From: a virus
Length of the DNA: 32,855 nt
Direction: 5' to 3' (one strand)
IMG/VR virus record: IMGVR_UViG_3300033571_001841
Coordinates: 1-32,855 of that record
Positions 1 through 32,855 of the stretch are shown piece after piece. The number at the start of each line of letters is the position of its first letter. Within the stretch, counting starts at the first letter, position 1. Both the position numbers and the translations under genes were made by a program. Under the pieces are notes generated by a model. The model did no database searches and was not told the origin of the DNA. It saw only the letters and a program-made list of their open reading frames with translations.

Positions 1-2514
1 GATGCAGTACCACCATTACAAGACATTGGTCACACTGATACAATGTTTGAATCAGTTAAAGGCTACATTGCCGCACCCGGTACATTAAAGAGTATTACTT
101 CTAGAGCACCGGCACATGCACCATGGTCTAATGCTAATCAAGGTGTCAACGTAAGCACTAGCTCAAATGCAAGTGATAATTTACCTGATTCACCTAGTTC
201 AAGCGTAGAGCAAGCAAATGAAGCTGCCTCAGTAGCACCTACAGGAAATCCTGTGCAGCCTGCGGCATTGTCAACTGTTCCTGCAACTCCTGCAGTAAGC
301 GAAGCAATGGATCCGCAAGCAACTGCCGCAACGGTCAGTGCAGTCGCAACCAATGCGGCAACAGGAGCGGCAGCAGCCGCTGTTGCAACAGGTTCAGGTA
401 TCGTTCAAACAGCACAAGGACAAGTAGCATCACTTGGTGCATTGGCACAATCTCCTGCGCAACTTGAGGCTGCCGGCATATTAAAACCAGGTTCTTCTGC
501 TTTAGTTGACTCACTAGTTAAGTCAGGATCTCCGTTATCACAAGCACTACCAAACAACTTGTTCACTGGACAAGGTGGTATATCAAGCTTAACATCCTTC
601 GTAGGCAATCAAGGTGCACAGATTTCAGGTATGGTTTCTAACTTACAAAAATCACAAACTGCATTAACAGGAGCAGGATTGATATCTGGTAAAGAATCAT
701 CCACTTCAATTGCTGGTTTAATTATGTCAGGTGCTACTGCCGGTATTTCTAACACAATTAATGCAGTCAAGAATCTAGGAACATTAGCTTCTAATATTTC
801 TTTACCTAGCTTAGGATTACCCGGTGTAACTAATCCAATCACAAACGCTATCAGTTCAGGTAACTATGCAGCCGGGCTAGCACAATCAAGTACAGGTGGA
901 TTAGGATCCATTATGAGTACTGTTCTTCCTGTTGCAGGATTGATTGCAGGTTCTAAATTAAACAGTAAAGGATCAAGTGCAGCCGCATTTGGTTTGATTG
1001 CCGCGTCATTGACTGCATTACCGCGTGGCCCGGTAAACTTGAGATCCAATTCTAATGCTAACTATGACCTAGCAGTAGCAAGATCATCTGGATACAATGA
1101 TCCATTTAATTCTGCCGCTAGATTATTAAGAACAACTGGACAAATTTTAGGTGGCAGAAATGCTAGAGTTACTAGTGCAGTTGCCGGAGGCATCACTGCT
1201 ATCGGTAGACTGAATGGTGCTAATACACCGTCTCAAGCATTAACTGGATTGACCGGAGTACTTGGATCTATCGGATCTATCGGATCTGCTTTGGGTAATA
1301 AGTCTATTGCTAAAGCTTCTAGGGATGTTAATGCTATCATAGGTGTATCCAAGCAACTAAATAGGAACCTATCAACTATTGCTAATGCCAAGACAGCATC
1401 ACAGGCCTTAGGTGGGTTGATTGGTGTCTTTGGTGGTGTAGGTCGTGGAGCATCTATATTTGGTAATAAGAATGTATTGAATAGAACTAGAGATGTTAAT
1501 AAGATTTTAACCAACACCGGTCAAATTTTAAGAGCGTCAAACGTATTGGCCACAAGTAAGAATATAAATCAAACATTGGGTGCATACGGATCAATCATCA
1601 ACGCCGCAGGAAGAATTGCCGGCGTGTTTGGTAAAAACAGTAAGAGCACAGGATTGTTTGGTATTCCTGGTGGACAGTTAAGTGTAGGATCAATTGTCAA
1701 TAAGTCATTAGGATCATTGGGTATCCCTAAAAATCCTGCATTGAATTCTATTATTACTAATGCAGTAACCGGGGCAATTAATAAGATTGCATTCCCTAGT
1801 GCAGTTAAAGGTGCCGCAGGGTTAGCCGCAGGCTTGCCTAATCTACCCTCAGGATTACCTGGATTACCAACAAGTCAGATTACAAATGCACTGAGCAGTT
1901 TACAATCAGCCGGACAAAATCTAACAGGTTTAGCGTTAAATGATTTGACATTGGGAGAAGCAGGGCCACTTAATGCGGCAATGTCTGCTATTGGCTTTGG
2001 TGGTGCCGGCGCAATTAAGATGCCTAGTATTGGTCTAAACACTAACGATGTCGCTGAAGTAAATGGACAAATCAATTCACTATTAGAAGATAGTAGAATT
2101 CCTAGACCAGACTTTGGTGATATTGATGAGTCTGCGGTAGCATTACTAGATGCAATATTAGCTCAAAACGATCAAATAGACAGCGCATTTGAAGAAATTG
2201 ATAGTTTAACTATTGAAGTAGAGTCTGCTAGGGAAGAATACTTCACATTAGAAAATAATTTACCGCAGGGTTCACCTGAAGTAGAATCTGCTAGAGAAGC
2301 TTGGATTGCACTAAGTCAAGATTTAGAAGATAGGTTAGAAGCAATTAATGGTGTTATCAATCAAGCTGCCGCTAGTAATGAACAGAGTGAACAGACATTC
2401 GCAGGGTATACTGGTCCGTCTGTCGTATATGCGGCAGATGGTACTAGCTCACCAGTAGATAGTTTAGGTAATGCAATACGACCATTGATTAATGGCAGTT
2501 TTGGTACAGGTTAA
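1..2514 (+). CDS. Large Ala/Gly/Ser-rich baseplate (hub-associated?) protein, 5' partial
   Basis: The frame is open from base 1 and the first ATG (base 43) has no Shine-Dalgarno sequence, so I read this as the C-terminal part of a gene that starts upstream; at least 837 residues lie in the window. The visible part begins with a segment containing SRAPAHAPW, which resembles a motif I associate with hub/lysozyme (gp5-like) proteins of marine T4-like phages; that is recall, not proof. A Ser/Ala/Pro-rich linker follows, then a long Gly/Ala/Ser/Leu-rich region. Around bases 1110-1640 there are about three tandem repeats of 55-56 residues (NTPSQAL, KTASQAL, KNINQTL starts). The C-terminus has an acidic, probably coiled-coil stretch (about 2120-2395). 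It is directly followed by gp25, consistent with a structural role in the baseplate. Function of the low-complexity part is unknown; a tape-measure-like or hub-extension role is possible. Confidence 0.75.
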   Translation, partial: DAVPPLQDIGHTDTMFESVKGYIAAPGTLKSITSRAPAHAPWSNANQGVNVSTSSNASDNLPDSPSSSVEQANEAASVAPTGNPVQPAALSTVPATPAVSEAMDPQATAATVSAVATNAATGAAAAAVATGSGIVQTAQGQVASLGALAQSPAQLEAAGILKPGSSALVDSLVKSGSPLSQALPNNLFTGQGGISSLTSFVGNQGAQISGMVSNLQKSQTALTGAGLISGKESSTSIAGLIMSGATAGISNTINAVKNLGTLASNISLPSLGLPGVTNPITNAISSGNYAAGLAQSSTGGLGSIMSTVLPVAGLIAGSKLNSKGSSAAAFGLIAASLTALPRGPVNLRSNSNANYDLAVARSSGYNDPFNSAARLLRTTGQILGGRNARVTSAVAGGITAIGRLNGANTPSQALTGLTGVLGSIGSIGSALGNKSIAKASRDVNAIIGVSKQLNRNLSTIANAKTASQALGGLIGVFGGVGRGASIFGNKNVLNRTRDVNKILTNTGQILRASNVLATSKNINQTLGAYGSIINAAGRIAGVFGKNSKSTGLFGIPGGQLSVGSIVNKSLGSLGIPKNPALNSIITNAVTGAINKIAFPSAVKGAAGLAAGLPNLPSGLPGLPTSQITNALSSLQSAGQNLTGLALNDLTLGEAGPLNAAMSAIGFGGAGAIKMPSIGLNTNDVAEVNGQINSLLEDSRIPRPDFGDIDESAVALLDAILAQNDQIDSAFEEIDSLTIEVESAREEYFTLENNLPQGSPEVESAREAWIALSQDLEDRLEAINGVINQAAASNEQSEQTFAGYTGPSVVYAADGTSSPVDSLGNAIRPLINGSFGTG
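1219..1638 (+). repeat. Three ~55-residue tandem protein repeats
   Basis: Repeat units start near 1225, 1390 and 1558 (spacing 165 and 168 bases). Each has a [NK]-x-x-[SN]-Q-[AT]-L start, a Gly-rich G-x-[IV]-x-[SG] segment, a G-[NK]-[KN] turn and, in the first two, an R-D-V-N-[AK]-I helix. The third is shortened after GVFGKN. The repeats are visible in the protein but diverged in DNA. Confidence 0.6.
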
Positions 2515-3035: not shown

Positions 3036-6000
3036 ATGGCTACAAGTTCACGACAGTCCGCATTATTCGGTGTAAACGATTGGCAAGCAATTTACCAAAC
3101 CTTTCGTGAAGCCGACTTCAGAAGCTACGATTATGAAACCCTACGTAAGAGTTTCATCGATTACTTACGTGTATACTACCCGGAAACATTCAATGATTTC
3201 ACTGAATCTAGTGAATTTATTGCCCTACTTGACGTTATAGCGTTTATGGGTCAAGGTCTTGCTTTCCGCAATGACTTGAACACACGTGAGAACTTCATTG
3301 ACACTGCTGAACGTAGAGACAGTGTTATCAAACTAGCTAATTTGGTTAGCTATACGCCTAAACGTAACTTGGCTGCTCAAGGTTATCTAAAAATTGTAAA
3401 CATACAAACTACTCAAAACATCACTGATTTGAATGGTACAAATTTAAGCAATCTTCCTATTCTATGGAATGATCCTGCAAACCCAGCTTGGATTGAGCAA
3501 TTCAACACAATTATCAATGCGGCATTAGTTGATACACAACGTATTGGTCGTCCTGGAAACATAGCAGATTTATTAGATGTTACCACTAGTGAATACACAC
3601 TAAGAATACCTAATAATGCATTGCCAATCGTCCCGTTCACTACTGTAGTCGATGGCATTGCGATGAATTTTGAACTTTGCAGTGTAACTAGTGTAGACGC
3701 AGATTACATGTACGAGATTCCTCCTGCTCCTAGCGGTCGTTTCAACATGTTATATCGCAATGATAAGCTTGGTTATGGTAGCCCAAATACAGGTTACTTC
3801 TTCTATTTTAAGCAAGGAACATTACAAAACTTTGATTTCACATTGGAACAGCAAATTGCCAATCAAGTAGTAAACATTGATATTGACGGTGTTAATAACA
3901 CAGATACATGGTTGTATCAATTAAATCAAAACAATGGTACTAGAGTATTATGGAACAAAGTAGAAAACATTTACGCTGACGCATACTTACAGACAGAAAC
4001 AAGTAATAGAACTATATTCTCTGTAAACTCACGCTTCAATGACCAAGTAAGTTATGTGTTTGGTGACGGCGTTTTCAGTCAAATCCCTGTAGGTACTTTC
4101 CGTGCTTATGTTCGTGGGGGAAATGCATTGACATACACTATTGATCCTAACGAAATGCAGGGCGTAACTGTTTCTTTTAGTTACATCAATAGAACAGGTA
4201 AAACAGAAATTTTAACGTTGGGTCTTGAGTTACAACTACCAGTATCTAACGCACAAGTACGTGAACCCCTAGCGCAAATTAAACAACGTGCGCCAACACG
4301 ATACTATACTCAAAACCGTATGGTTAATGGTGAAGATTACAACAACTTCCCATATACGTTGTATAGCTCTATTATTAAGTCAAAGGCTATCAATCGTTCA
4401 AGTATTGGTGTCAGTAAAAACTTAGATTTGTTGGATCCTACAGGAAAGTATTCAAGCTTAAACAGCTTTGCAACTGACGGTGCATTATGGCAAAATGATA
4501 CCAATGGTTTTGAGTCGTTGACAATCAACACTGTTGGTAACATTATTACGTTCTTAACAGACACTATGGGTAGTGTACTATCAAGTAACCGTGTCGTTCA
4601 GTACTACACTCAAAACTTCCCTCAGTATTCGATTAATACTGCTTCAGGTGATGGTACCATATACTGGAATGCAAGTACAGTTGATGCTAATTCATTGACT
4701 GGTTACTTCTTTAACATCACTGATGGTAGCCCATTACCAGTGCCAATTGGCACATACTCTACAAACAATGTAAAGTACATCACGCCAGGAGCATTAGTAA
4801 AATTTACTGCTCCTAGTGGATTCTACTTTGATAACACAAATCATCTTGTTTCAGGTATTGCCGGCCCAAGTAATCAAACATACTTTTGGACTACCGTGCT
4901 ATCAGTTATAGGAGATGGTTATAACAACGGTGAAGGTAACTTTGCTAATGGCACAGGCCCTGTTACATTAAATGGTTATGTACCTGAAGGTGCAATACTA
5001 ACTACTGTACTACCTGCATTTGATAATTCTTTGTCTAACGAAATTGTACAAGAGTGTATCATTCGTATGGAATTACAACAAAACTTTAGTTTAGTTTTCA
5101 ATAACTCATTGACTATTGCACAGGATCGTTGGAGTATCAAACAATACAATGACGCCAATTGGTTTGTAAATTTTGAATTTACAAATGGAAGATACAATGT
5201 AACATATCGTTCATTACGTTACTACTTTGGTAGTGTGCAAGATACACGTTTTAGTTTTGAACGTGACAAGTTGGTTTATGATCCACTTAGCGGTAAAATC
5301 TTACAAGACTTTATTAGTGTGTTAGCGACAAACACACAGCCAACGAGCAACAATCCCCTATCGAAACCAGTAACAATTAACATTGTTGGTCAGACAGTAG
5401 AGAGCGATGGCTACATTAATGATTTTGAAGTTGAAGTAGCAAGTAATGATATTAACAATCGTGGATTGATTATTAATCCTGACTTCTTCCAAACAGTAAC
5501 TGGATACACCACAGGCGGAGCCAATTCAGGTATCTATGTATTCTTTGAGTTAGTAGAAGATGCAATTAGTTTGTCTAGATATCAGATTGTACCAACAAGT
5601 GATGTAGTTCAATATCAAACTAAGACACAAATAGAAGTAGCTAAATATGAGTACCCACTAGGACAACTATTTTATGCATACGGTGAAAATGTGTTTTGGA
5701 AAACAGTTCAAGATCAAACAGTGAACACACCTTTCTACGTATTGGTTGCACAACCACAATATTCTATAAGACCAGGTCGTCAAGGATTGCAATTCCAATA
5801 TCGCCACAATAGTAACAATACTACACGTATTGATCCAGCTACCACAAACATTATTGACTTGTACGTAGTCACACAAAGCTACTATACACAATATCAAAAC
5901 TATATTAGAGATACATCTAACACAGTCGCCATGCCGCCTAAGCCAACTATTAATCAATTGAGCGAAGAATATGGTGAATTGAACAATTATAAAATGTTAA

Positions 6001-6401
6001 GTGACAGTATGGTACTGAACAGTGTTGTTTTCAAACCATTGTTTGGTCCTAAATCAGCTTCAAACTTACAAGCAACCATAAAAGTAATCAAAGCATCAAA
6101 TACAAATGCAAGTGATAGTGAAATTCGTAGTGCAGTATTGACAGCAATGAATGTATATTTTGATATCAACAATTGGAACTTTGGAGACACCTTCTACTTC
6201 AGTGAGTTAAGTGCATATTTGCATGACCAAGTAGGTGAGTACATTAGTTCCGCAGTTCTAGTACCAAATGATCCTACAATGAAGTTCGGAGATTTATATG
6301 AAATAAAATGCTCACCCTATGAGATTTTCGTCAATGCGGCAACCGCAAATGACGTATTGGTTATAGCTGCCCTAACACCAGCTGAATTACAAATTGCATA
6401 A
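3036..6401 (+). CDS. 6: Baseplate wedge protein gp6
   Basis: A 1121-residue member of the T4 gp6 baseplate wedge family. The N-terminal 120 residues carry the family pattern: a short helix region (DYETLRKSFIDYLR), an EFIALLDVIAFMGQ segment, the FRNDLNTRENFIDTAERRDSV-type helix (about residues 80-100) and a SYTPKR motif. The C-terminus has the family's dimerisation-type region with VYFDINNWNFGDTFYFSEL (about residues 1040-1060) followed by a hydrophobic YISSAVLVPND strand. gp6 forms the ring that holds the wedges of the baseplate together. T4 gp6 is 660 residues, so the middle of this protein is greatly enlarged, with a beta-rich section from about residue 420 to 900. A weak AAGAGA lies 7 bases before the ATG. 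It sits between gp25 and the giant gene and was probably co-expressed with both. Confidence 0.95.
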   Translation: MATSSRQSALFGVNDWQAIYQTFREADFRSYDYETLRKSFIDYLRVYYPETFNDFTESSEFIALLDVIAFMGQGLAFRNDLNTRENFIDTAERRDSVIKLANLVSYTPKRNLAAQGYLKIVNIQTTQNITDLNGTNLSNLPILWNDPANPAWIEQFNTIINAALVDTQRIGRPGNIADLLDVTTSEYTLRIPNNALPIVPFTTVVDGIAMNFELCSVTSVDADYMYEIPPAPSGRFNMLYRNDKLGYGSPNTGYFFYFKQGTLQNFDFTLEQQIANQVVNIDIDGVNNTDTWLYQLNQNNGTRVLWNKVENIYADAYLQTETSNRTIFSVNSRFNDQVSYVFGDGVFSQIPVGTFRAYVRGGNALTYTIDPNEMQGVTVSFSYINRTGKTEILTLGLELQLPVSNAQVREPLAQIKQRAPTRYYTQNRMVNGEDYNNFPYTLYSSIIKSKAINRSSIGVSKNLDLLDPTGKYSSLNSFATDGALWQNDTNGFESLTINTVGNIITFLTDTMGSVLSSNRVVQYYTQNFPQYSINTASGDGTIYWNASTVDANSLTGYFFNITDGSPLPVPIGTYSTNNVKYITPGALVKFTAPSGFYFDNTNHLVSGIAGPSNQTYFWTTVLSVIGDGYNNGEGNFANGTGPVTLNGYVPEGAILTTVLPAFDNSLSNEIVQECIIRMELQQNFSLVFNNSLTIAQDRWSIKQYNDANWFVNFEFTNGRYNVTYRSLRYYFGSVQDTRFSFERDKLVYDPLSGKILQDFISVLATNTQPTSNNPLSKPVTINIVGQTVESDGYINDFEVEVASNDINNRGLIINPDFFQTVTGYTTGGANSGIYVFFELVEDAISLSRYQIVPTSDVVQYQTKTQIEVAKYEYPLGQLFYAYGENVFWKTVQDQTVNTPFYVLVAQPQYSIRPGRQGLQFQYRHNSNNTTRIDPATTNIIDLYVVTQSYYTQYQNYIRDTSNTVAMPPKPTINQLSEEYGELNNYKMLSDSMVLNSVVFKPLFGPKSASNLQATIKVIKASNTNASDSEIRSAVLTAMNVYFDINNWNFGDTFYFSELSAYLHDQVGEYISSAVLVPNDPTMKFGDLYEIKCSPYEIFVNAATANDVLVIAALTPAELQIA

Positions 6402-12400: not shown

Positions 12401-15400
12401 CATTGAATGATGGAGATACTATTTCGTATGGACAGTTCAATTTGAGCAACTTTGAACATGGTATTGTTTTTGATAACGTTACCTTGTTTGGGGATATTAT
12501 CTATAACTTGACAACTGGATTACGTCAGAATCGTATTGCATTGCGTGGTACAAAGAGTGCTGATTGGAATGGTACAGTTAACGCAGCCGGCTTTATCTAT
12601 AATCAAGATAATATCAAAGAATGGAACCGTACAGTTAAGTATACCAAAGGTGAAATTGTTAAGTACAAGAACAAGTACTGGATCGCTACTAAAATTATCC
12701 AAGCAAGCGAAATATTCAAAGAAGCTGATTGGAAACGAACAGATTACGATGAGGTTCAAAAAGGTCTGTTACCTAACTCAAGTACACGTAGTTATGAAAG
12801 TTCATTGTACTACGACATTGACAGGGCTAACCTAGAGAATGATGCAGACTTATTGAGTTTCAGTTTGATTGGATATAGACCACGTGACTACATGGCTCTT
12901 GCAGATTTGACTGATATTACTCAAGTCAACGTGTACAAGAACATGATTAAAAACAAAGGTACATTGAATGCAGCCTCTGCATTCAGAGGTGCAAACTTGC
13001 CACAAGGCGGGATTGATTATGAAATCTTTGAAAACTGGGCTATTAAAGCAGGTGAGTTTGGCGGTGTACTAAACAACAACTTTGTTGAATTTAGAGTTAA
13101 TGAAAAGAACATGACAGGTAATCCTGCAATCGTAGGATTGACTGACGGAGTATACAATGTAGGCGTACAACAAGAAGTACCATTGTATTCATTGTTTAAC
13201 TACGGAAGACCTATCACAAATGTTGACGTATTGCCCACAAATGAAGTCGATACTCCAAATACAATTTATCCAGATGCAGGTTATGTAAATTACAACGATG
13301 TAAAAATGTCTGCATTCTTCTATTCTCAATTGGGAGTAGCAGTTGACAAGAACGGTTCTATCGTACCTATTGAAGATTTCTTTGTTCGTGATTATGTATG
13401 GCTAGCTAATTACCTAGAGCGTTGGGAAGTATATACTCCTGTTGCTATGGGTCAAGTAGTATCAGCAAGAAATAACTTGAATGAAACAGTAACAATTACG
13501 TTCAACAAACCACATAACCTAAGACAATATCAACCGTTTGCAATTGTAAACTTTGATTTAGCTATCGATGGTTACTACCTAGCAACTATTGTTATTGACC
13601 AATACAGAGTGTTAGTAAACAGAACACTAGACACAAGCATCAAGACTATTACAGGTCAAGGCGTTGCAATGAAGTTTAGTTCTCAACGTGTTGCTACACC
13701 TGCTGAAATAGCAGACTTGCCACTAACTGACGCTGAGTTTAGAAAAAATACAGTATGGGTAGACACTAATGGTTCTGGTTCTTGGGGAGTTTATCGTAAA
13801 GGTATTAACTACACATTAACTAGCCAAGTAACAAAAACTTCTAGCCAATCGTTAGGTAGTGCGGTTGCGGTTGGTGATCAATTGGGTTACTTAATAAGTG
13901 ACGCTGACCTAGGTCAAGTGTATCGTTACACCTACAACGATCTATCACAATCATATGAATTAGTTCAGACTATTACCGGCAGTGCATCTTTTGGTAGCAC
14001 TATTAGCTATGCCGGTGACGTTTATGCAATTGCACAAACTACGGGTGGTTCTAGAACTGTTAAACTATATCAACTACAGAACACAACTACTAGTGACGAT
14101 TTGGTATTGATACAAACTATACCATACGAAACAGGTGCAACTACTTGGGGAACATCTATTGCAATGTCTGGAAATCTAGATTGGATCTATATATCTGACA
14201 TTGACAACAACACGGTTCACGTATACCAACGTTCTAATATATCAACGACCGCTGGCAATTTTGAATCTACAGAAACATACGTTATCAATGAAATAGGTAC
14301 TACCGATTTTACTTTGATTGGTGCAACATCTAACGATGTTGGTGTGAAGTTTATTGCAACTGGTGTAGGAACAGGCACTGGTGTAGCTACTAAGATTACA
14401 TACAATGTGGTAACTATTATTGATGGTGATGCATTGGGTTTAACGAACCCTGGTGACAGATTTGGTTACTCAATTTCTACGGACTATGACGGTGATGAAA
14501 TTGTCATAGGAGCTCCGTACAAAGATTACGGTGCTTATGATAAATGGGGCCAGTCATATGTATTTCAAAAGTTGTATCAGAATATAGAAATTCAGTACAA
14601 CACAATTGCACCTACATCACAAACATTGCAGTTAGCATGGACACCTGATACAACACAATTTACAGTTACTGCAACTAATGCTACTACAGATAGAATTACA
14701 TTGACTGTAGCAATGGATCCAATAGCAGATTTAGATAAACCAATCATATTTTCGGGTTCAGGATTTGGGGGAACAGAAATTGTCACTGAAAAAGTTTATT
14801 ATGTTTCTACTATTTCAGGATCTAATATTACTATCAAGCAAACCAGAGAAAGCACAACTGATGTTGCACTAAGCACGGCTGCCGGATTAACCAACACATA
14901 TGCTTATCTACAAGACGATACTCTATTTGTATCTAAGAATGGTACATTAGTTCAGGATAACAATTATGCTGTAATCAATGATACATTGATTTACACTAAC
15001 TCTTTAGATGCCGGAGATATTTTAAATGTAAGTGGTCATTTCATTACTATAGTTCAGACTCTTACTACTGAACAGACTCCTCAGACCGGAGCACAATTTG
15101 GCACTAGTGTTGCTACCAATATACATGCTAGTGAAATACTAGTAGGTGCTCCGTATCAATTGAATACACAAGTTTCTGAAGGTGTTGTTTATCGTTACAC
15201 TGATCCAGGAGTAGTTTATGGAATATACACTGGTACTACAGATTGTAATGTCACTACTACTAGAAAATTACTAATCAATGGATTCTTAACTTACATACCT
15301 GCAGGCGACGCAAGTGATGCCGCTGATGCTATTAATTCTGCACAGATTACTAATGTGGCTGCAACTAACATTGATGGTAAATTGGCTATCTTCTTAATAG

Positions 15401-18400
15401 ATAGTGATCTTGCACCTGCTTTTGAGAAATTATTCATAGGTGTAACTGACGATCAAACACTAACTGAATTGGGTATTCAAACATATACGTTGACACAAGA
15501 AATTTTGTGTCCACACACTGAAGGCCCCACACAATTTGGTACAGTAATAAAATTCAACGAATATGGTAGCTTTGTTGCAAGTGCTCCGGTAGGAACACGA
15601 TTCAGTGCAACTACATTTGATTTCATTGATGATGAAAATCAAGACAATGATACATTGTTTGACAACAATGCAACTAATTGGATAGACGAATCTCCTAACT
15701 TTGGTGCTGTTTACATGTTTGATTACATTTCACAGTACAATGAAAGTTTAGCTAATATTGGTAAGTTTGTTTATGCACAAAGCGTCAACTCACCTAATTT
15801 AGTGTATACTCCGTTTAATACGTATGACCAAGAAACTGACGTAACATCAAGTAATCAACCTCGTTACGGTACTGCATTAGACTTTAATAACTACGGTGTC
15901 ATTGTAGGTACTCCTGGTGATGTTGGCGCTACTACTGGTACTGAGTATGCAGGGTCTGCGACAGTGTACAACAACAGTTTGCGTGTCAAAGATTGGTCAC
16001 TATACAGATATTCTGCTCCTATAGTAGATATCAATAAACTGTTCAACATACAATTGTTTAGTGCCGAAACTAATCAAACACTAATCAATTTGGATTACAT
16101 TGATCCATTGCAAGGAAAAATATTAGGTGCGGTTAGAGAAAACATTGACATAGTATCAAATGTTGATCCGGCATCATATAATAATACAGCAACTGTTAAT
16201 GGTAATCTAGTATGGGGTGCAGATTATGTTGGTAAGATTTGGTTGAACACTAAAAACATGCGTTATGTGAACTATCATCAAAACGATGATGTGTCATATA
16301 ACAGTCAATATTGGGCAACATTGTTCCCAGGTAGTGATGTTGCAGTTTATAGTTGGGTTGCAAGTAACGTATTGCCTAGTAGCTATCAAGGACCAGGAAT
16401 TCCTCTAAGCATCAACTCATACTCAATACAATATGTAATAAATGAATCAGGTGCTCTGACTCCTGTGTATTATTTCTGGGCTAGAAACACCAATATCATT
16501 AATGATAGTAAAACATTGTCTGACAGTATCATTGCGTCATACATTGAAAATCCTAAAGCATCTGGTATTAGTTATTTCAGTCCTATACTACCTAGCGTTT
16601 ATGGATTATACAATTCAAATGAATACATCAATGCAAATGATAGCGTATTGCACATTGGTTTTGCAACCGGAACAAACAATGATGTTTCACACGAACAATT
16701 CAATTTGATACGTGCTGGATTTGCAAGTGATTTCTTACCTGGAGTTCCATTGTTGTCTAACGAAGCTCCTGACAGTTTATATGATAGATTACTAGACAGC
16801 TTGTGCGGTGTAGATGAAACTGGTGCAATTGTTCCTAACCCATATTTACCAAAAGCAGTTCAAACTGGTATATTGGCTAGACCTCGTCAAAGCTTCTTCT
16901 TTAATCGCTATACTGCGTTAAAGAATTACCTACAGTATGCAAACAGTATATTGGCTCAATTTCCAATCACTGAGATTCGTCAATCATCATTCTTAAATTC
17001 GAATGGTATTTTTTACGACACTGCTGACTATTGGGAATATATTAATTGGTGGTCTACTGGCTATGACAACAATACTAAGTCTGCACTACAAGTTTTAAAT
17101 TATGCAGATTTATCTACACTGTCTGTAGTAACAGGTACGATTGTATCAGTTACATCAAATAGTAACGGTAGAACAGAAACGTATGTATATGAATCCAGTG
17201 GTAACTGGAGACGTATTGGCCTAGAAAATGGTACTATCAGATTCAAAACATCATTATGGGATTATGAATCAGTTCGTTTGGGATTTGGTGATAATTTCTT
17301 TGACACTGATCTTTATGATATTTACCCAAGCGAAGAAACACGTAAAATTGTCCGTGCATTGAACGAACAAATTTACACTGATGACCTTTTAGTATACAGA
17401 AACCGTAGTTTAATTTTGTTGTTTGAATACATTCAAAGTGAAACTACTGAAAATCAAAACTACTTGCCATGGTTGAATAAAACATCATTCATTGATGTTG
17501 CTCATACTATTCGTGAACTACGTCCTATTGAAGTATTCCAAAGTGATAACCAAGATTTCTTATCCGGTTACATGAATGAAATTAAACCATACCACGTAGT
17601 TATTAAAGAATTCTTATTCAAATATACAGGTGAAGAAGTTTATGGTGGTAATATCACTGACTTTGACTTACCTTCAAAATATAGTGCGGCTCAAGCGCAG
17701 TTCATAACACCTCAGTTAGTATACGCTAATTCTAATGGTGTAAATCAGTTCACACCTGATGATCCTATATGGGAAGAGCAAGAATATTCACAATGGTTTG
17801 AGAATCATGGATTATCAATAACTGGTGAAAATGAAGTGCAGATGACCACATTAGCTTCATACCTTTCATTGAACACGAACTCATTTGCAGTAGATAATGC
17901 ACAGGGTTTCCCTATCAATGGTATACTAACAATTGGTACAGAGCAAATAGGATATTCATCTGTTGATAGAGCATTGAATGTTTTATCTGGTTTGACTCGA
18001 GGTGTAAACGGAACTACAATAGCACAGCATATTCCAGGTCAATTGATCTATATGAATTTACCGGCTGTTCTATTGTTAGATGGTGGTAGAGGATATGTAG
18101 AACCGCCTAAAGTAACAGCGTACATAGATACTACATTGTATCCTGCTCCAACTGTACCTGCTGTACTGACTGCTGTTATGAATTTGGATAGTGTATTAAG
18201 AGTTGACGTAGTTAATCCTGGCCAAGGGTATGCAGTATTGCCTAAGATCATAATTGATCCAGCAATAACAGTACCGTTTACCAGTGCAGATGTAAACATC
18301 TTCTCTAACACAATTCAAGTATATGCTCCATTATTGCAAACAGGTGATCTTGTTCAATACAAGGTAGGAACTGACAGTACTGCTATTGGCGGGCTAGAAA

Positions 18401-21400
18401 ATAATCAATGGTATTATATTAATGTTTTAGAAACAGTACCATCAGTTGTTATTGGATTTTACGATAACTACGCTGATTGTATAGATAATCATGATAGATT
18501 AAGATTGTTTGATGCAGGTACAGGTTCAAATCACACGATAAATCAAGGTGCAAAAGCAAGCGCAATTTCTACGTCTGCCCCGGTTAGAGAGAATGACATT
18601 GTTTTGAGATTCGACAGAACCACATACGATTCTCAAGTTTTAGAATGGTTAGCAGGAAGATACTATGGTGCTTTCTATGCTGGTACTTACTCAAATAGTG
18701 AGTCAGTATCCAGTTCATCTATATCGCTACAAAGCACACAACCTCCAATCGCAGATATATTGGCAAGTGCTCAAGGTGTTGCGTTTGAAATCACTGACCT
18801 TAGAAATGAACGTGTAGTAAATTACAGTTCATTCATACGTTATGTTGATAGCACATACGCCGCAAATGAAGTCATAAGACTAGAACTACAAGACGATGGT
18901 TCAGGTAATCCAAACGCATCAGGTGGTACTATTGGTTTCTATGTTGGAATGCCGATCAAGTTCACAGGTGATGTTGGATCTAGTGGTATTATTACTAATC
19001 AAGTTTACTACGTAAACAGCATCATCAACCAAACTGATTTTACTATATCTGAAAGCAGTACAGGTAGTCCAATCAAAGTATTGTCTAACTGGACAGTAGG
19101 TCCTGCAGGATTACAATGTTACGTTGGTGAAGTAACTGATACTGCGGTTATTACGGTTAACTATCCGGGCATTTTAAATGTAACTGCAACTCAATCAACT
19201 GTAAACAAATTGACAGTGCCATTGAATGTTACTGGTTCAGGTGGTACTGAAGGATTCTATATCAATCTACCAATCTTCTTTACAGGCACAGATTCTAATT
19301 TACCACAAAACGGTGTGTTTGGTGGTATTGTAGAAAACGAAGTATACTATGTTACAACAGTGGTCGACAACCAAACGTTCACCATGTCTGAGGAGAAAGA
19401 CCCACAAACATTTAATGTAACTGCAACGGTTGCTTCTACTGATACTGTTGTAATAGATGGTGACACCTCAAAGTTAACAGTAAATGAACCTATAATCTTC
19501 AACACAATGGTTGTTGCAGGAACAGAAACATCTTCATTTGGTGGATTAGTTTCAGGAACTACATATTACGTATCGTCTATTGTAAGCCCAAGTTCATTCA
19601 CTATTTCTACATCAATTAACGGGGCAATAGTTGCATTGTCTAATGTATCGGCTGCATCTAACACCTCTGCTCTATGCACAAGTCAGAAAAATACCTTAGC
19701 ATTAACAACTACAACAGGTAATAACATGGTTGTCAACGTTAGCTTGCCAGTAAGCCCAGGACAAGTTAATGGTCAGTTGTTCACCCTATATGAAACTTCA
19801 GGGCAATATCCGAGTCTAGACGGCACTGATGGTAATTTGATTACTAGGGGATTAGCCGCATTGATAGGTCAAAGAACTATTGATAGTGTAGTAGTTGATG
19901 TTAACGCAATTGTATTAACTAACTTTAATCCAGGCGATACAGTAGCATTGGGATTGACAAACATTTACATCAACATGCCAATTGAAATTTCAAATGACTT
20001 GTTCTATAACAACGTACTAGTTCCTGGAACTACATATTACGTAGTAGAAAAAGATACAATTGAAATTGAAGTCACAAACACATCATCTTCAACTAATGAG
20101 TTGACTTGCGATACTACTGAGCTATTATTCGCTGATATGCCAATCATATTCTCGGGCGCTGGTATTGGTGGTGCTGAAATTGATGTTGAATATTGGGTTA
20201 AGGAAGTTGTAAGTGATACTAGATTCACTATTACTAATACACCAGGTGGTTTAGAACTAACCTTATCTACTGCTAGTGGATTGATGACAGGTACTGGATT
20301 ACCTTATATTAAGGTTGCTACCAATATTGGAGATCCTGCAATATTCCCAGGTAACACACAGCAAAGTGCTTCTATCAGCGCCGCAAATCCAGCTGTAATT
20401 ACAGTCAGTGGAGCACCTTCAGACGGTGACACTGTTATTTTCAGAAATGGTGAAGCTCCTGCAGGTATGGCGTTGAACACAACCTACTATGTACGTAACG
20501 CAACCAACACTACATTTAACATTTCGTTAACATCTACAGGCTCGCTAATAAACACTTCGGCTGGTGTAGCTAAAACGTCAACAATGGTTATAACTGAGAC
20601 AACTACAATAGATCAAACTCCACTAACAGTTCCTCAATTTGATGTCAGCTACATCTTAGGTGGCTATAGAGTATTGATTACCAATCAAGGATCAGGATAT
20701 GCAGTTGATAATACAATTGTGATCCCGGGCACTGATATGGGAGGAACCACTACATTAAACGACTTGACGTTAACTGTAAACACAATTGATAGTGAAGGTG
20801 AAATTTTAAGTGTTATTTGTTCAGGTACAGTGCCAGGTGACAGTAATCAATATTACTTGAAAGTTATTTCTTCTACAGAATTTGAATTGTATGCAAATCA
20901 GTTGATGACAGTTCCTGTTAGTGGATTGAACTTACCATATGTAGGTATTACTGAAACTACTGTTACAGCAACACAATCATCGACAGATATTATTACAGTG
21001 TCAAGTACATCAGGATTTAGTGTAAATGATGCAGTAGTCTTTACTGGAAGTAGTTCAGGTGGAATGGTTCAAGGTCAAACATATTACATATTGGACAATA
21101 TTAATTTTACTGCAACTACATTGCAAGTTAGTGAAACCCCAAATGGTTCTGTATTTCAGTTAACAACTGCGGTCTCTCAAAATTATACAATGGCTAAGTT
21201 TGGTTCAGTTGCGTTGTTACCGGAACCATTCATATTCAATCAGAGCATTGTTAAGTATAACAACCGTGTTTATGTTTGTGTTGTATCAAATAACGACCAA
21301 GAGTTTGTATTTGGTAAGTGGGAACTATTAACTAGTGGTGATCGTAGACTAAATGCAATGGATCGTGTAATGGGTTATTATCAGCCTACCGTAAATATGC

Positions 21401-24400
21401 CTGGCAAAGACTTGTCACAGTTGTTTGAAGGGGTAACATATCCAAATAGCACATACTTAGGTAATCCATTCGCACCGGATCAACAATATGCAGTAGATAC
21501 TATTTTACAAGATCAAGCGTTCTATCCTACTGATGTAGATATACATGCTGTAGTTTGGGACGGCACTAGATATATTGCTGCCGCGGATATGTCTACATAT
21601 TCAAGTGTGTTGTCTAGTTTAACTACTGATGAATGGGCTATACAAAAACTAGCAAACACTCCGATCAATACAACGGATATGATTTATGCTGGTGGTTATT
21701 ATTTGTTAACTACAAATAACTCTGCAACACCTATCTTCAGAAGTGAAAATGGCATTACATGGACAACAAACGGTTACTTTACTCCATGGGGTTCAGTACC
21801 ATATGACACTACAACATATGACTTCACCGCACTAAGCATATCTTCATTGAATCTAAATTCAGTAGGATATAGAAATGGAATATGGGTATCAGTAGGAGAT
21901 GGCGTAATATCTAGTGATGATACTTACATTTGGAGACAACGTTTTACATTTGGTAATCCTCTACTAACTAATATACTATACGGTGTAAATGGTATTGATA
22001 TTACTGCATTCCAAGGCTTCATTGCAGTGGGTAAAGGTCAACAGATGGATTACTCTAGTGGCATTGGAGTTACAATCAATGTAAGCATTATATTAACTAG
22101 CACTGACGGAATTACATGGAATCAATTAGCACCAGTAAGTTCTAAAGGATTGTACGGAATAACACACAACGGTACAAACGCATTAGCAGTCGGTGAAGAT
22201 GGTGTAATCTATATTTCTAATAACGGTGGCAATTGGTTAGGCGTAAATGAAGTAACTGTTATTAGCGTCAACGCATCATCAAACTACCTAAACGTAACTA
22301 GCACAACTGGATTCGCAGTAAACGATCAAGTAGTATTCTCTACCTCGTTTAACGTGTTTACTGCAGGAACAACATACTATGTTAAGACTATTGTTTCTGG
22401 CACTCAATTACAATTGAGCACTACATTAGGAGGCTCAGTCGTCACATTAACTGCGGCAGATCCTTCTACAACCACATACATGTCAGCTATTGCTACACAT
22501 GATTTAGTAGACGTTCTTTATGCTAATGGTGTTTATGTTGCTGTGGGCGATAACGGTTACGTTATAACGTCAATGAATGGTTATGATTGGGCACAAAGAA
22601 CGACAGGTACATCAGAAAACTTGAATGGCATAGCATACAATGCAGATGATGATATATGGATTGCAGTTGGTGAGAACAATACAATTCTAGTAAGTTATAA
22701 TGACGGTACTGATTGGACTAGTTCTTCTGTCTTTGCCCCTCAAACAACAACATATGATGTTCAGGGCGCAGAATTTACATATGGTTACGGTCCAGAAGAA
22801 CTGGTGCCAGGTGTTGTAACTGACAACATTACTATGACTGTTGCTACACGTCCTGGTACTAATTGGGACGAAACGATTTATCAACATGTTGGTTATAATG
22901 TTGTAAGTATTGAATTAACTCCTACATCAGGTACACAAACTTTATACAGCTTTGACGTTGGCAACTTGTACAACATACAAAATCCAGCACAAATAGCAGT
23001 TTATGAAATCAATGGTTCTACTGGTTTAGGTACTGCTATTTACAACACAGTAGACTACACAATAAATTGGGTAGATTTTTCTATTACGTTGAACAGTCCT
23101 CTACCATTCACACCAGTGACAAATAAGCTACGTGTTGATATCTATGAAGTAGGTAACGGAAATCAATTAGTCAAGGCTAGCACCAAGACTGATCCAATTC
23201 GTATGCACGAAAATACTGGTTGGAATGAAATTTATGTAAACTGTAACTATTCTGGACAAATCTATCAAGGTTCAGGTGTTATAAGACCTGATACTAATCC
23301 AGTTGACGTAGAAGCCACCGAAACAGATTCAACCTCTAACACTATATTGTGTGCAAGTGTTAAAGATTTCTTCTTGAACGAACCCATCACATTCCAAGGT
23401 GCAGTGTTTGGTGGTTTAGCAGAAGATACAACGTATTACGTTAAAACTATCAGTTATGTAACTAACAGAATCACAGTGTCTACGACTATCAATGCAGGCA
23501 CCGGCACAGCAGGACCTACATTGGCATTGACTGATGCTACCGGTTCTATGAATATTATTATTAAAGTTGGTTATGGTGAAGTATGGACTACTCCAATCAT
23601 TTATCACAATGGTAACAAACTATTATTGGGCACCACTAGCACTGTTACTAGAACAAAAGCTAGCAACAATGCAGTGACAACCAATACGACCGGTGGAATG
23701 ATTGTAGGCGAACGAATTGTGTTTAGTGATACTATGTTTGGTCCAGTATTGGCTCCGCAGACAACATACTATGTCAAAACTATTATAGATGCAAATGAAT
23801 TTACAGTATCTGCGACATTAGGTGGACCTGTCTTAGCATTAACTGATGCAACAGGCGGTGCAGAATTCATTACTAATGATTATGCATTTGGTATTGCGGA
23901 GAATGGAATAACTGCATCTATCATATTTGCTACAGGTGACTATGATGATAATGTAGACTACATAACTTACACATTGTTTGGTGAAACAACACCTACACAA
24001 TATGGTTATACAATACCTGAAACTCAGTTGATTACTGCTGATGGTACAGTAGGTCCGTTCAGCTTAGATAATTATGTTTCTGATAACAACCCAACTAATG
24101 CGGTTGTAGAACTTAATGGTCTTCGTTTGATTAATACCACTGATTATACTATTGATGACAACACCAATGAAATTACATTCACTAGTGCACCAACATTAGG
24201 TGATGTAATAGCAGTGACTACATACAACCAAACAGATCGCCAATACTTGAATACACAATATGGTATCACCGGTATTACTGTTTCAGACATTGTAGACATT
24301 AACAATACTATCACACCTTACTCCGCAACTACTAACTGTACTAATACTACTTCAGGTACAAATCGTATTACATGTGTATCAACCGGCGGATTCGCTGTTG

Positions 24401-26717: not shown

Positions 26718-27935
26718 ATGGCATATACAATTGTTAAAAGTGATGGGACAGTTTTAACGACAATACCTGACGGTACAATTAATACAACCAGCACATCTAT
26801 CGGCCTTCCTGGCAGAAACTATGCTGGTTATGGACAAACTTTGGATACAAACTTTGTTCACCAATTAGAGAATTTTGCGGATACTACACCCCCATCTAAT
26901 CCATTACGCGGTCAACTTTGGTATAACACAAATAATAGTACATTATATGTTTGTCCTACTGACGGTGAAGCAAATGCTTTAGCTTGGTTAGCACTAACAT
27001 CAACTAGTTCAGGTGGTACAACTACTTTTGGTGCATTAACTGTTACAGGAAACGTTCAAGCAAATAATTTGGCTGCAACCAACAATATTACAGGTAATGC
27101 GGCATCATTGAATTATCTTACAGTGTCAGCAAATGCTAATATTGCAGATGGAAATCTAACGACAGCAAACATAGGTACACTACGCACGACTACAATTACT
27201 ACTGGAGCAAATTCTACTGCCGGTACGATAACAGGTACGTGGACAGCAAACGGTGGATTATCGGGCAACGCCATCATTATAACTAATGGTAACTTGTTTA
27301 TAGGTAATAGTGCAGGTGCAAACTTATACGGTGTTAGAACAGACAAGTATATGTATGCTAACGGTGATCCTATCAGTTTTGCAGGTACATATAGTAACAG
27401 TAACGTTGCTAGTTACATGCCTGTTTACAACGGCGCAATTCTTACTACAACTACACAAGCAACTACATTGACAACAGGTGCAAATACTACACCAGGTACA
27501 ATTACTGGTAACTGGACATTAAGTGCAGGTTCAAGGTTCAATGCTACATACGCCGACTTGGCCGAACGTTTTGCGGCTGATAGTGTATATGATGCAGGTA
27601 CTGTTGTTGAATTGGGCGGTACGGAAGAAATTACTGCTGTTCAGTATGAACTAAGTGAAGATGTTTTTGGTGTTATTTCTGATACTGCTGCCTATCTAAT
27701 GAACGCAGGAGCAGGTAGTGACAAAACTCACCCGCCCGTTGCAGTTTCAGGACGAGTAAAAGTCAAAGTTACAGGCATAGTTAAAAAGGGTGAGCGATTA
27801 GTTAGTGCAGGCAATGGTATCGCACGTGCGGCAAAAGCAGGTGAAGCAAATGCATTCAACACTATTGGTAGATCACTTGAAGAAAAAACAACAACAGACA
27901 CTGGCACAGTTGAAGCTATTGTTATTATAAGATAA
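26718..27935 (+). CDS. Tail-fibre-like protein, 405 residues
   Basis: The N-terminal 80 residues contain GRNYAGYGQTLDTNFVHQLE followed by FADTTPPSNP and RGQLWYNT, an attachment-type head that I recognise from marine phage fibres. The middle is a Thr/Asn/Gly-rich beta-repetitive shaft; TTGAN[ST]T-x-GTITG-x-WT occurs twice (27190-27243 and 27466-27519). The C-terminal ~129 residues begin YADLAERFAADSVYDAGTVV and run through SGRVKVKVTGIVKKGERLV to the end; this end domain is widespread in fibre-like proteins of aquatic phages. It has a GGAGTG ribosome-binding sequence and its own late promoter motif. A receptor-binding or fibre role is likely; the partner and target are unknown. I see no catalytic motif that I can name. 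Confidence 0.85.
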   Translation: MAYTIVKSDGTVLTTIPDGTINTTSTSIGLPGRNYAGYGQTLDTNFVHQLENFADTTPPSNPLRGQLWYNTNNSTLYVCPTDGEANALAWLALTSTSSGGTTTFGALTVTGNVQANNLAATNNITGNAASLNYLTVSANANIADGNLTTANIGTLRTTTITTGANSTAGTITGTWTANGGLSGNAIIITNGNLFIGNSAGANLYGVRTDKYMYANGDPISFAGTYSNSNVASYMPVYNGAILTTTTQATTLTTGANTTPGTITGNWTLSAGSRFNATYADLAERFAADSVYDAGTVVELGGTEEITAVQYELSEDVFGVISDTAAYLMNAGAGSDKTHPPVAVSGRVKVKVTGIVKKGERLVSAGNGIARAAKAGEANAFNTIGRSLEEKTTTDTGTVEAIVIIR

Positions 27936-31197: not shown

Positions 31198-32137
31198 TAT
31201 TGTAGATGTTGCAGACTTAGACTGTATCTATCTCAGTTACGATGAACCGCAGAAAGAAGAATTCTGGCTAAAGATTAAGAACATGGTGCCTTGGGCAAAG
31301 CGTGTCGATGGCGTCAAGGGTTCAGACGCCGCACACAAAGCCGCAGGTGAAGCAAGCGAGACAGAACGATTTATTCTTATTGACGGGGATAACATGCCCG
31401 ACGAATCTTTCTTCAATATGCAACTCGACTTTACAGGAAAAGATTCTACTTATCAATTGGCACAATTTCGTTGGAAGGCAGTAAATGCTATCAACGGACT
31501 ACGTTACGGTAATGGTGGCATGAGTTCTTGGACAAAGAGTTATGTCCGTAACATGCAAACGCACGAAGCACAGAAAAGCGGCGACAGTTCACGTATTGCT
31601 GACTTCTGTTTAGACAGTAAAGACAACTTGTATTGGGCAATGTATGATTGCTATTCAACTACATATCCCAATCATACTCCGTTTCAAGCATGGCGTGCAG
31701 GTTTTCGTGAGGGTGTCAAGATGGTTCTTGACAAAGGCGAGAAGCCTGATGCTACTGAGTTCAAAGAACGTGTAGCAAGTCGCAATCTAAATAACTTGAC
31801 GATTTGGCAAAACGTTGGTGCCGATGTTGAGAACGGCATCTGGGCTATATATGGTGCTCGACTTGGAACATACATGACAATGCTTACTGAGTGGGATTGT
31901 CATAATGTACAATGGTTTGATAACTATCCTGTACTATGGGAAGAACATGAATTCAGAGATCCAATAGTGCAATCAGAATTGCTTGGTGAGGCATTACATG
32001 ACAAGTTGGGATTACCAATGTGTACACTAAGTGCCGAACAGTCAAAGTTCTTCAAACGTCACTATCAGTCTGACTATCACAATCAAGGCCCATTAGTTAC
32101 TGAGATGGAAGTCATTCGTAGAATCGAAGGATGGTAA
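31184..32137 (+). CDS. Sugar-nucleotide-type enzyme candidate (DGDN motif), 317 residues
   Basis: The N-terminal third follows a glycosyltransferase GT-A plan: LDCIYLSYDEP opening, VPWAKRVDGVKGSDAAHKAA, then ERFILIDGDNMPD with the acidic motif D67-G68-D69-N70. Later conserved blocks are RYGNGGMSSWTKSYVRNMQT, CYSTTYPNHTPFQAWRAGFR and DVENGIWAIYGARLG. I recognise this protein from many marine phages, usually without a function. The YSTTYPNxTPFQAWR block is strongly conserved and may form the active site. TGGAAG lies about 10 bases before the start. The likely role is transfer of a sugar or a related group, but this rests on the DGD motif and on the neighbours only. Confidence 0.7.
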   Translation: MNSSNIVDVADLDCIYLSYDEPQKEEFWLKIKNMVPWAKRVDGVKGSDAAHKAAGEASETERFILIDGDNMPDESFFNMQLDFTGKDSTYQLAQFRWKAVNAINGLRYGNGGMSSWTKSYVRNMQTHEAQKSGDSSRIADFCLDSKDNLYWAMYDCYSTTYPNHTPFQAWRAGFREGVKMVLDKGEKPDATEFKERVASRNLNNLTIWQNVGADVENGIWAIYGARLGTYMTMLTEWDCHNVQWFDNYPVLWEEHEFRDPIVQSELLGEALHDKLGLPMCTLSAEQSKFFKRHYQSDYHNQGPLVTEMEVIRRIEGW

Positions 32138-32855
32138 TGAGCGAAAGCCACGAACAAAAACGAATCAAAGAGATTAGGATCAAAGTCGAAAACGAAGTTG
32201 GTCCTACGTTCTGCCTTGCAAAATGGCATCACGTAACTATGTACTTGCAATCAGGAGAGACACATAGTTGCTATCACCCTCAACCTCATAAGATTCCCTT
32301 AGAAGAATTATATGACAATCCTTCTGCGTTGCATAATACACAGCAGAAGAAAGAAGAACGTAAACTAATGCTCGACGGTGGCAAGCCTACTGGCTGTCAG
32401 TACTGCTGGAACATTGAAGCAATGGGTCCTGATTATATTAGCGACCGACACATTCGTAACGCAAGTATCTTCACTGAGGAACGATATGAACAAACTACAA
32501 AGGGTCCGTGGAATCAAAACATCAACCCCGAGTACATCGAAATCAACTTCGGTAATGAGTGTAACTTCAAGTGTGGCTACTGCCACCCTAAGTATAGCAC
32601 AAGCTTCTACAAAGAGATTGAACAGAACGGTCCGGTTACTAACGTAAAGAATCATCGCTGTGATATCGATTGGATGAAGTTATATCAACGTGAAGATGAT
32701 AACCCATATGTTGACGCATTTTGGGAGTGGTGGCCTGAGATGCGTAAGACATTGAATATCATGCGTGTCACTGGTGGCGAACCTACACTACACAAGAGTA
32801 CATGGACATTGCTTGAAAAGATTGAAGAAGATCCTATGCCATGGTTAGAGTTGAA
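32137..32855 (+). CDS. Radical SAM enzyme with N-terminal twitch/SPASM-like cysteine region, 3' partial
   Basis: The ATG at 32137 overlaps the previous stop by one base (TAATG), with GAAGGA five bases before it. 239 residues are visible before the window ends. C142-x3-C146-x2-C149 (ECNFKCGYCHP) is the radical SAM iron-sulfur motif, and TGGEPT at 212-217 is the matching SAM-binding motif. Ahead of the core lies a second cysteine set: C26 (FCLAKWHH), C45 (SCYHP), and C87-x2-C90 (GCQYCWNIE), in the order of a SPASM/twitch auxiliary-cluster domain but placed N-terminally. I associate this with the family of phage radical SAM proteins with an N-terminal twitch domain. Substrate is unknown. Its place at the end of the sugar-enzyme block suggests a joint pathway. 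Confidence 0.9.
   Translation, partial: MSESHEQKRIKEIRIKVENEVGPTFCLAKWHHVTMYLQSGETHSCYHPQPHKIPLEELYDNPSALHNTQQKKEERKLMLDGGKPTGCQYCWNIEAMGPDYISDRHIRNASIFTEERYEQTTKGPWNQNINPEYIEINFGNECNFKCGYCHPKYSTSFYKEIEQNGPVTNVKNHRCDIDWMKLYQREDDNPYVDAFWEWWPEMRKTLNIMRVTGGEPTLHKSTWTLLEKIEEDPMPWLEL

Follow-up and report, generated by a model that had tools for sequence, protein, structure and literature searches.

Nested domain insertions at a seven-bladed propeller in a giant, putatively baseplate-linked virion protein of a candidate jumbo myovirus

The main feature of the viral record of 32,855 bases analysed here (the window) is a single ORF of 6,494 aa, which is open throughout (Table 1). Its conserved core is matched in two parts by the ‘virion structural protein’ profile phrog_10938 (E 1.9e-201 and 1.3e-57), placing the protein in that family, and the gene directly upstream encodes a gp6-like baseplate wedge protein. 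The same order of wedge gene and giant gene is found in the cultured jumbo phages Phosso, Atu_ph07, Munch, RaK2 and Paride. The core shared by the phrog_10938 giant proteins (RaK2, Munch, Atu_ph07, Phosso, Paride and SCTP-2) corresponds to residues 1–170, 500–700, 890–2300 and 3190–3800 of the window protein; the cultured members, however, are 3,326–4,555 aa in length and have no sequence counterpart of the propeller-bearing C-terminal region described below. With the propeller itself as tblastn query, the phage database yielded no more than a 19 % match, to a tail fibre of Caulobacter phage KSC, and the propeller flank found no match among the cultured phages of the collection. The location in the virion thus rests on the conserved core and on synteny, from which we infer a baseplate-linked or tail-associated protein of a jumbo myovirus. 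In T4 the gene following gene 6 encodes the baseplate wedge protein gp7, and at a guess the giant protein could be its counterpart. Scanning genome contigs with the propeller flank returned zero relatives, and therefore no sign of prophages.

Two further genes lie downstream of the giant gene. A 405-aa ORF (26718–27935) matches phrog_14394 over its first 75 residues and phrog_6427 and phrog_22593 in its C-terminal part, and is possibly a fibre with a conserved C-terminal domain. Behind the tail genes a radical SAM protein is encoded at 32131–32853 (phrog_13987, E 6.5e-6); in Sinorhizobium phage Phosso a radical SAM gene is likewise located shortly behind the giant protein gene.

Table 1. Features of the window that bear on the interrupted propellers, in order of position
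Feature	Coordinates	Strand	Basis
gp6-like baseplate wedge protein, directly upstream of the giant gene	3036..6401	+	phrog_10646 baseplate wedge subunit, E 9e-260
Giant virion structural protein, host of the propellers, 6,494 aa	6412..25896	+	Open ORF; phrog_10938; tblastn to jumbo phage giant proteins
First propeller, FG-GAP type (approximate limits)	13429..15951	+	PF14312 FG-GAP_2, E 3.6e-8; FG-GAP-like repeats by sequence
SYTI module between FG-GAP repeats	14251..14388	+	HMM score 65; close relatives have a homologous copy
Copy of the FCCH-like module within the FG-GAP propeller	14656..14898	+	HMM score 46; missing from the corresponding place in L068
Left anchor, conserved backbone preceding the propeller (LPEPF...LQDQAF)	21217..21522	+	HMM from relatives; also in propeller-less loci
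Seven-bladed beta-propeller, including the inserted module	21520..22734	+	AlphaFold2, VIA, conserved Trp
Blade 1, model residues 7–45	21538..21654	+	DSSP of model
Blade 2, residues 51–82	21670..21765	+	DSSP of model
Blade 3, residues 112–143	21853..21948	+	DSSP of model
Blade 4, residues 152–202	21973..22125	+	DSSP of model
Blade 5, residues 211–241	22150..22242	+	DSSP of model
FCCH-like six-stranded beta-barrel module, residues 244–323, linker of blades 5 and 6	22249..22488	+	Own model; VIA Z 8.0; HMM score 72
Blade 6, residues 329–360	22504..22599	+	DSSP of model
Blade 7, residues 368–400	22621..22719	+	DSSP of model
Right anchor, conserved backbone following the propeller (YDVQGAEF..GYGPEELVPG..)	22735..23304	+	Alignment; near-direct joint to left anchor in L150, L151 and L155

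A seven-bladed propeller had been proposed at 21535–22722 in a first-pass annotation of the letters, and the predicted structure agrees with those limits to within a few residues. The AlphaFold2 model, built with 43 homologues (pLDDT 91.1, pTM 0.90), consists of seven four-stranded blades in a ring, which assigns it to the seven-bladed fold class, and of a separate strand-rich segment at residues 244–323. VIA-align superposes 266 residues of the model (range 2..394) onto seven-bladed propellers with Z 29 and rmsd 2.3. The seven Trp-ending turns that had been seen by eye are real: W39, W81, W138, W200, W239, W357 and W399 (numbering of 21520–22743) are each Trp in 88/88 aligned relatives. The VAVG-like strands described with them are clear in blades 3–7 and degenerate in blades 1 and 2 (AAAD, LTTN). 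The label ‘Asp-box type’ holds only in part; SxDGxxW can be read by eye in most blades, but the Pfam BNR/Asp-box models (PF02012, PF13088) all stay below their gathering scores, with no BNR match on the window and, in the relative L067, a BNR_2 score of 18.5 bits against a cut-off of 31.4. Neither the propeller nor the module copy between blades 5 and 6 was assigned to a confident family by Pfam, PHROGs or NCBIfam.

An unrelated phage protein with Trp-ending propeller repeats was encountered around position 4001 of L083 (IMGVR_UViG_3300028805_000060). It carries in-frame TGA where Trp is expected, with 8 TGA against 6 TGG in the stretch; this phage therefore probably reads TGA as Trp.

The strand-rich segment is an 80-aa module in the linker of blades 5 and 6, and the propeller closes around it; the limits in the model differ by a few nucleotides from those first given (22252–22485). 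Folded alone from 20 module copies it gives six strands at pLDDT 93.5. Its best structural neighbours among the VIA matches listed are the FCCH domains of ubiquitin E1 enzymes, with Uba1 and Uba6 in the top ranks (Uba1 183–262, 73 aligned residues, rmsd 2.6), and the margin over other barrels is small. Next come phage tail proteins, namely the head-to-tail entry FCWL1 (18–99, Z 7.6) and the T1 tail tube (18–99, Z 7.1), and further the I-domain of the P22 coat protein (227–347, Z 7.1), the phi92 endosialidase (258–340, Z 6.4) and the LKA1 tailspike (288–372, Z 5.8). A Z of 8 lies at the edge of chance arrangements and Foldseek E-values for the module exceed 0.09; since such a match is modest, the comparison speaks for likeness of fold and is not proof of descent. 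The gathering score of E1_FCCH (PF16190) was not reached: the copy between blades 5 and 6 has no match, and a C-terminal stretch of the giant protein scores 26.3 bits (E 8e-6) against a cut-off of 29.5. In the literature searched, no description of a phage FCCH domain turned up. With an HMM built and iterated on the studied loci, 16 copies of the FCCH-like family were counted in the giant protein, along with one copy of a second module (SYTI, below); by this count the copy between blades 5 and 6 is the eleventh, rather than the tenth as first numbered.

That the module is an insertion was to be judged from relatives in which the same propeller lacks it. All 13 close relatives carry the module at the site, a uniformity that taken by itself would have spoken against an insertion and that was overturned once the search was widened by means of the flank. 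A search with blades 1–5 yielded 58 loci, among them L067 and L068 with the site empty. A wider set was then retrieved by the conserved backbone behind the propeller, independently of the propeller itself; identical stretches were merged, L008 was left out for its short flank, and L163, in which a nested SYTI module breaks up the barrel, was scored as filled by hand. Of the 90 distinct loci scored, 58 are filled, 29 have the same propeller with an empty site and 3 (L150, L151 and L155) are without the propeller altogether, the backbone running on in frame across 5–7 residues. Empty sites hold an ordinary inter-blade linker, e.g. WLATSSGTTETLRDVIY in L068, of the same kind as at other blade junctions. 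An assembly or frame artefact can practically be dismissed as the source of the insert, as the reading frame continues through the site without a stop and the same arrangement recurs, with diverged sequences, in dozens of independent contigs; nothing was found in support of an artefact.

Additional irregularities were seen among the relatives. A third kind of insert, of about 75 aa (...GGNGANTARCSINDVIITITNPGSGYPVGESIAYLG...), occupies the C-D loop of L126 blade 7 and is missing from the near relative L127, and blade 7 of L041 contains another insert. In the L070 contig the giant ORF loses its frame ahead of the propeller (upstream of 5977), either through an assembly error or as a genuine break.

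A tree built on the flanking backbone alone requires at least three changes for absence of the propeller, a minimum forced even by the starred branches alone. L150 lies beside L127 (86), L155 beside L146 (94) and L151 beside L161/L162 (100). As every propeller-less row thus stands beside propeller-bearing rows, repeated loss would be the simplest reading of these sequences, with gain possible. Among propeller-bearing rows the same tree gives two changes for the module, the second of which (L125/L144 versus L079, L131 and L146) has a support of 82–91 only. In the module tree the copies from the linker of blades 5 and 6 cluster together, separate from every other copy tested (SH-aLRT 94, on only 77 columns), which fits one old insertion followed by vertical inheritance and occasional loss. 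Entry of the barrel at this site was thus likely a single old event and not frequent hopping. An FCCH-like copy in blade 2 of L080 and L068 groups elsewhere in the module tree and is probably a separate insertion.

The direction of these changes could also be reversed, with the barrel an original part of the propeller family and the 29 empty-site loci having lost it by deletion. The backbone tree has no safe root, its midpoint depending on the very long L080 branch, and the family has likely seen one loss or more (L079, L131 and L146 near L125/L144). Against this stand the ordinary linkers at the empty sites and the spread of the empty state over most branches outside the barrel-bearing clade; in addition, similar propellers such as Ycf48 have, to our knowledge, not been described with a barrel at that place. 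We consider an ancestral barrel improbable and retain insertion as the preferred reading.

The second module, SYTI, is 46 aa in length (consensus AGSFVVGxTYxIxxxGTTDFTxIGAxSNTVGxxFxATGxGxGTGTA) and forms a family distinct from the FCCH-like barrel. No family in Pfam, PHROGs or NCBIfam matched it, and no copy was found in the cultured phages of the collection. It is nested inside the barrel between blades 5 and 6 in L055, L070 and L081/L163, and located in A-B hairpins of the propeller in blade 3 (L070), blade 6 (L097, L098) and blade 7 (L013). Further copies are found at very many sites, often within FCCH-like modules (also in L021, L010, L036 and others). Joining the flanks by script brought back an FCCH match for 57 of the 151 distinct SYTI copies, with several positions of the model represented. 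The element that recurs at many sites and nests in other modules is SYTI, not the barrel family. It is conceivable that SYTI is an in-frame mobile element that enters domain loops, including those of inserted modules, by a transposition-like or copy-based route, and giant phage proteins would then grow by nested invasion. We regard such mobility as unlikely; within a single genome, SYTI copies are for the most part about 65–72 % identical in bases, thus giving no general sign of recent transposition, and one recent-looking pair (L060, 61 codons apart) shares 86 %.

Two unrelated propellers of the same protein are indeed interrupted by one module family, as had been suggested, and each of them has a natural counterpart with the site empty. 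In the first propeller, of FG-GAP type, the gap between b4 and b5 measures 164 aa in the window, where the module is present, and 160–172 aa in other close relatives, versus 80 aa without the module in L068; at the second propeller the 29 empty loci serve the same purpose. It had further been argued that the module inserts preferentially into surface loops. Insert points in the second propeller do all lie in loops of the model or at a loop edge (background 47 % loop outside the module). A preference is unsupported, however, because the site between blades 5 and 6 was probably filled once; only 2 of the 16 copies were found interrupting propellers, and the remaining copies of the window are located elsewhere in the giant protein. 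In propellers the D-A linker, which here holds the barrel, lies on the face opposite to the A-B and C-D loops.

A propeller joined to a small barrel invites comparison with glycan-cleaving enzymes such as the phage endosialidases, in which case the barrel might serve as an accessory polysaccharide-binding site. The overall plan is common to both and, as given above, the phi92 endosialidase is among the structural matches of the module model; the corresponding sequence comparisons, one module copy with Pfam End_beta_barrel (E 0.011) and the module profile with EndoNF (E 0.67), are not significant. In the K1F endosialidase, loops of the barrel influence which hosts get infected (PMC12632334), which is a hint, by analogy only, for the barrel studied here. 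Across the 88 propellers, however, no conserved catalytic set was seen: conserved positions are structural (Trp, Gly) and only D53 and D134 are charged positions conserved above 85 %. With seven blades where endosialidases have six, an endosialidase-like activity seems rather unlikely, and the propeller is probably not an enzyme. That propeller and barrel are both optional favours a surface role, either host-facing or as spacing.

Taken together, domains have very probably been inserted one within another at this locus, in a giant virion protein linked to the baseplate of a jumbo myovirus; the computation directly yields the predicted fold, the insertion and natural empty sites at each level. 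At the first level the propeller would be an optional cassette flanked by a conserved backbone segment on either side, at the second the barrel would have been inserted once into the linker of blades 5 and 6, and at the third SYTI would have moved into the barrel or into a hairpin of the propeller in some relatives. The pieces may be exchanged as DNA cassettes through recombination near domain edges. They could represent non-essential domains for binding or spacing, exposed on the surface around the baseplate and gained and lost without breaking the core, with a putative binding role akin to that of the endosialidase tailspike barrel, which contributes to glycan contact. Modularity of phage adhesion and baseplate proteins is already known; here a natural before and after state is available for every nested step, i.e. 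bare backbone, propeller without barrel, propeller with barrel and barrel with a further module. Such pairs make the growth of giant phage proteins, and the tolerance of particular loops to inserts, testable on real sequences.

Receptor-binding and baseplate proteins of phages show ongoing domain-scale mosaicism (PMC10684548). Phage Ig-like domains are likewise small beta domains added to surface proteins; they and other cases of domain shuffling involve other folds, whereas three nested levels are present here with an empty site for each. Ycf48/Hcf136-like and BNR/Asp-box propellers share the Trp-ending repeats, and Ycf48 is among the top Foldseek matches, yet no Pfam or NCBIfam model of theirs reaches its cut-off on the propeller studied. 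For the module, E1 FCCH (PF16190) is the closest fold among the matches listed, although the ubiquitin-activating context is absent for the phage module. Endosialidases form trimeric tailspikes of their own, which have a catalytic site and six-bladed propellers. Those of K1F (EndoNF) and phi92 also combine a propeller with a small barrel of similar fold, a likeness at the level of topology only; unlike them, the present propeller has seven blades and a position inside a 6,494-aa baseplate-linked protein, and no conserved catalytic set was seen in it. In the P22 coat I-domain and the insertion domain of LKA1 gp49 a small barrel interrupts another fold, as here, and the LKA1 domain has been noted to resemble that of P22 (PMC5701251). 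The interrupted fold is a capsid fold in P22 and a beta-helix in LKA1, versus propellers here, with about 16 module copies in a single protein. A repeated module family of uncultured phages may thereby be tied to the beta-barrel insertion domains of the P22 coat, the LKA1 tailspike and the endosialidases.
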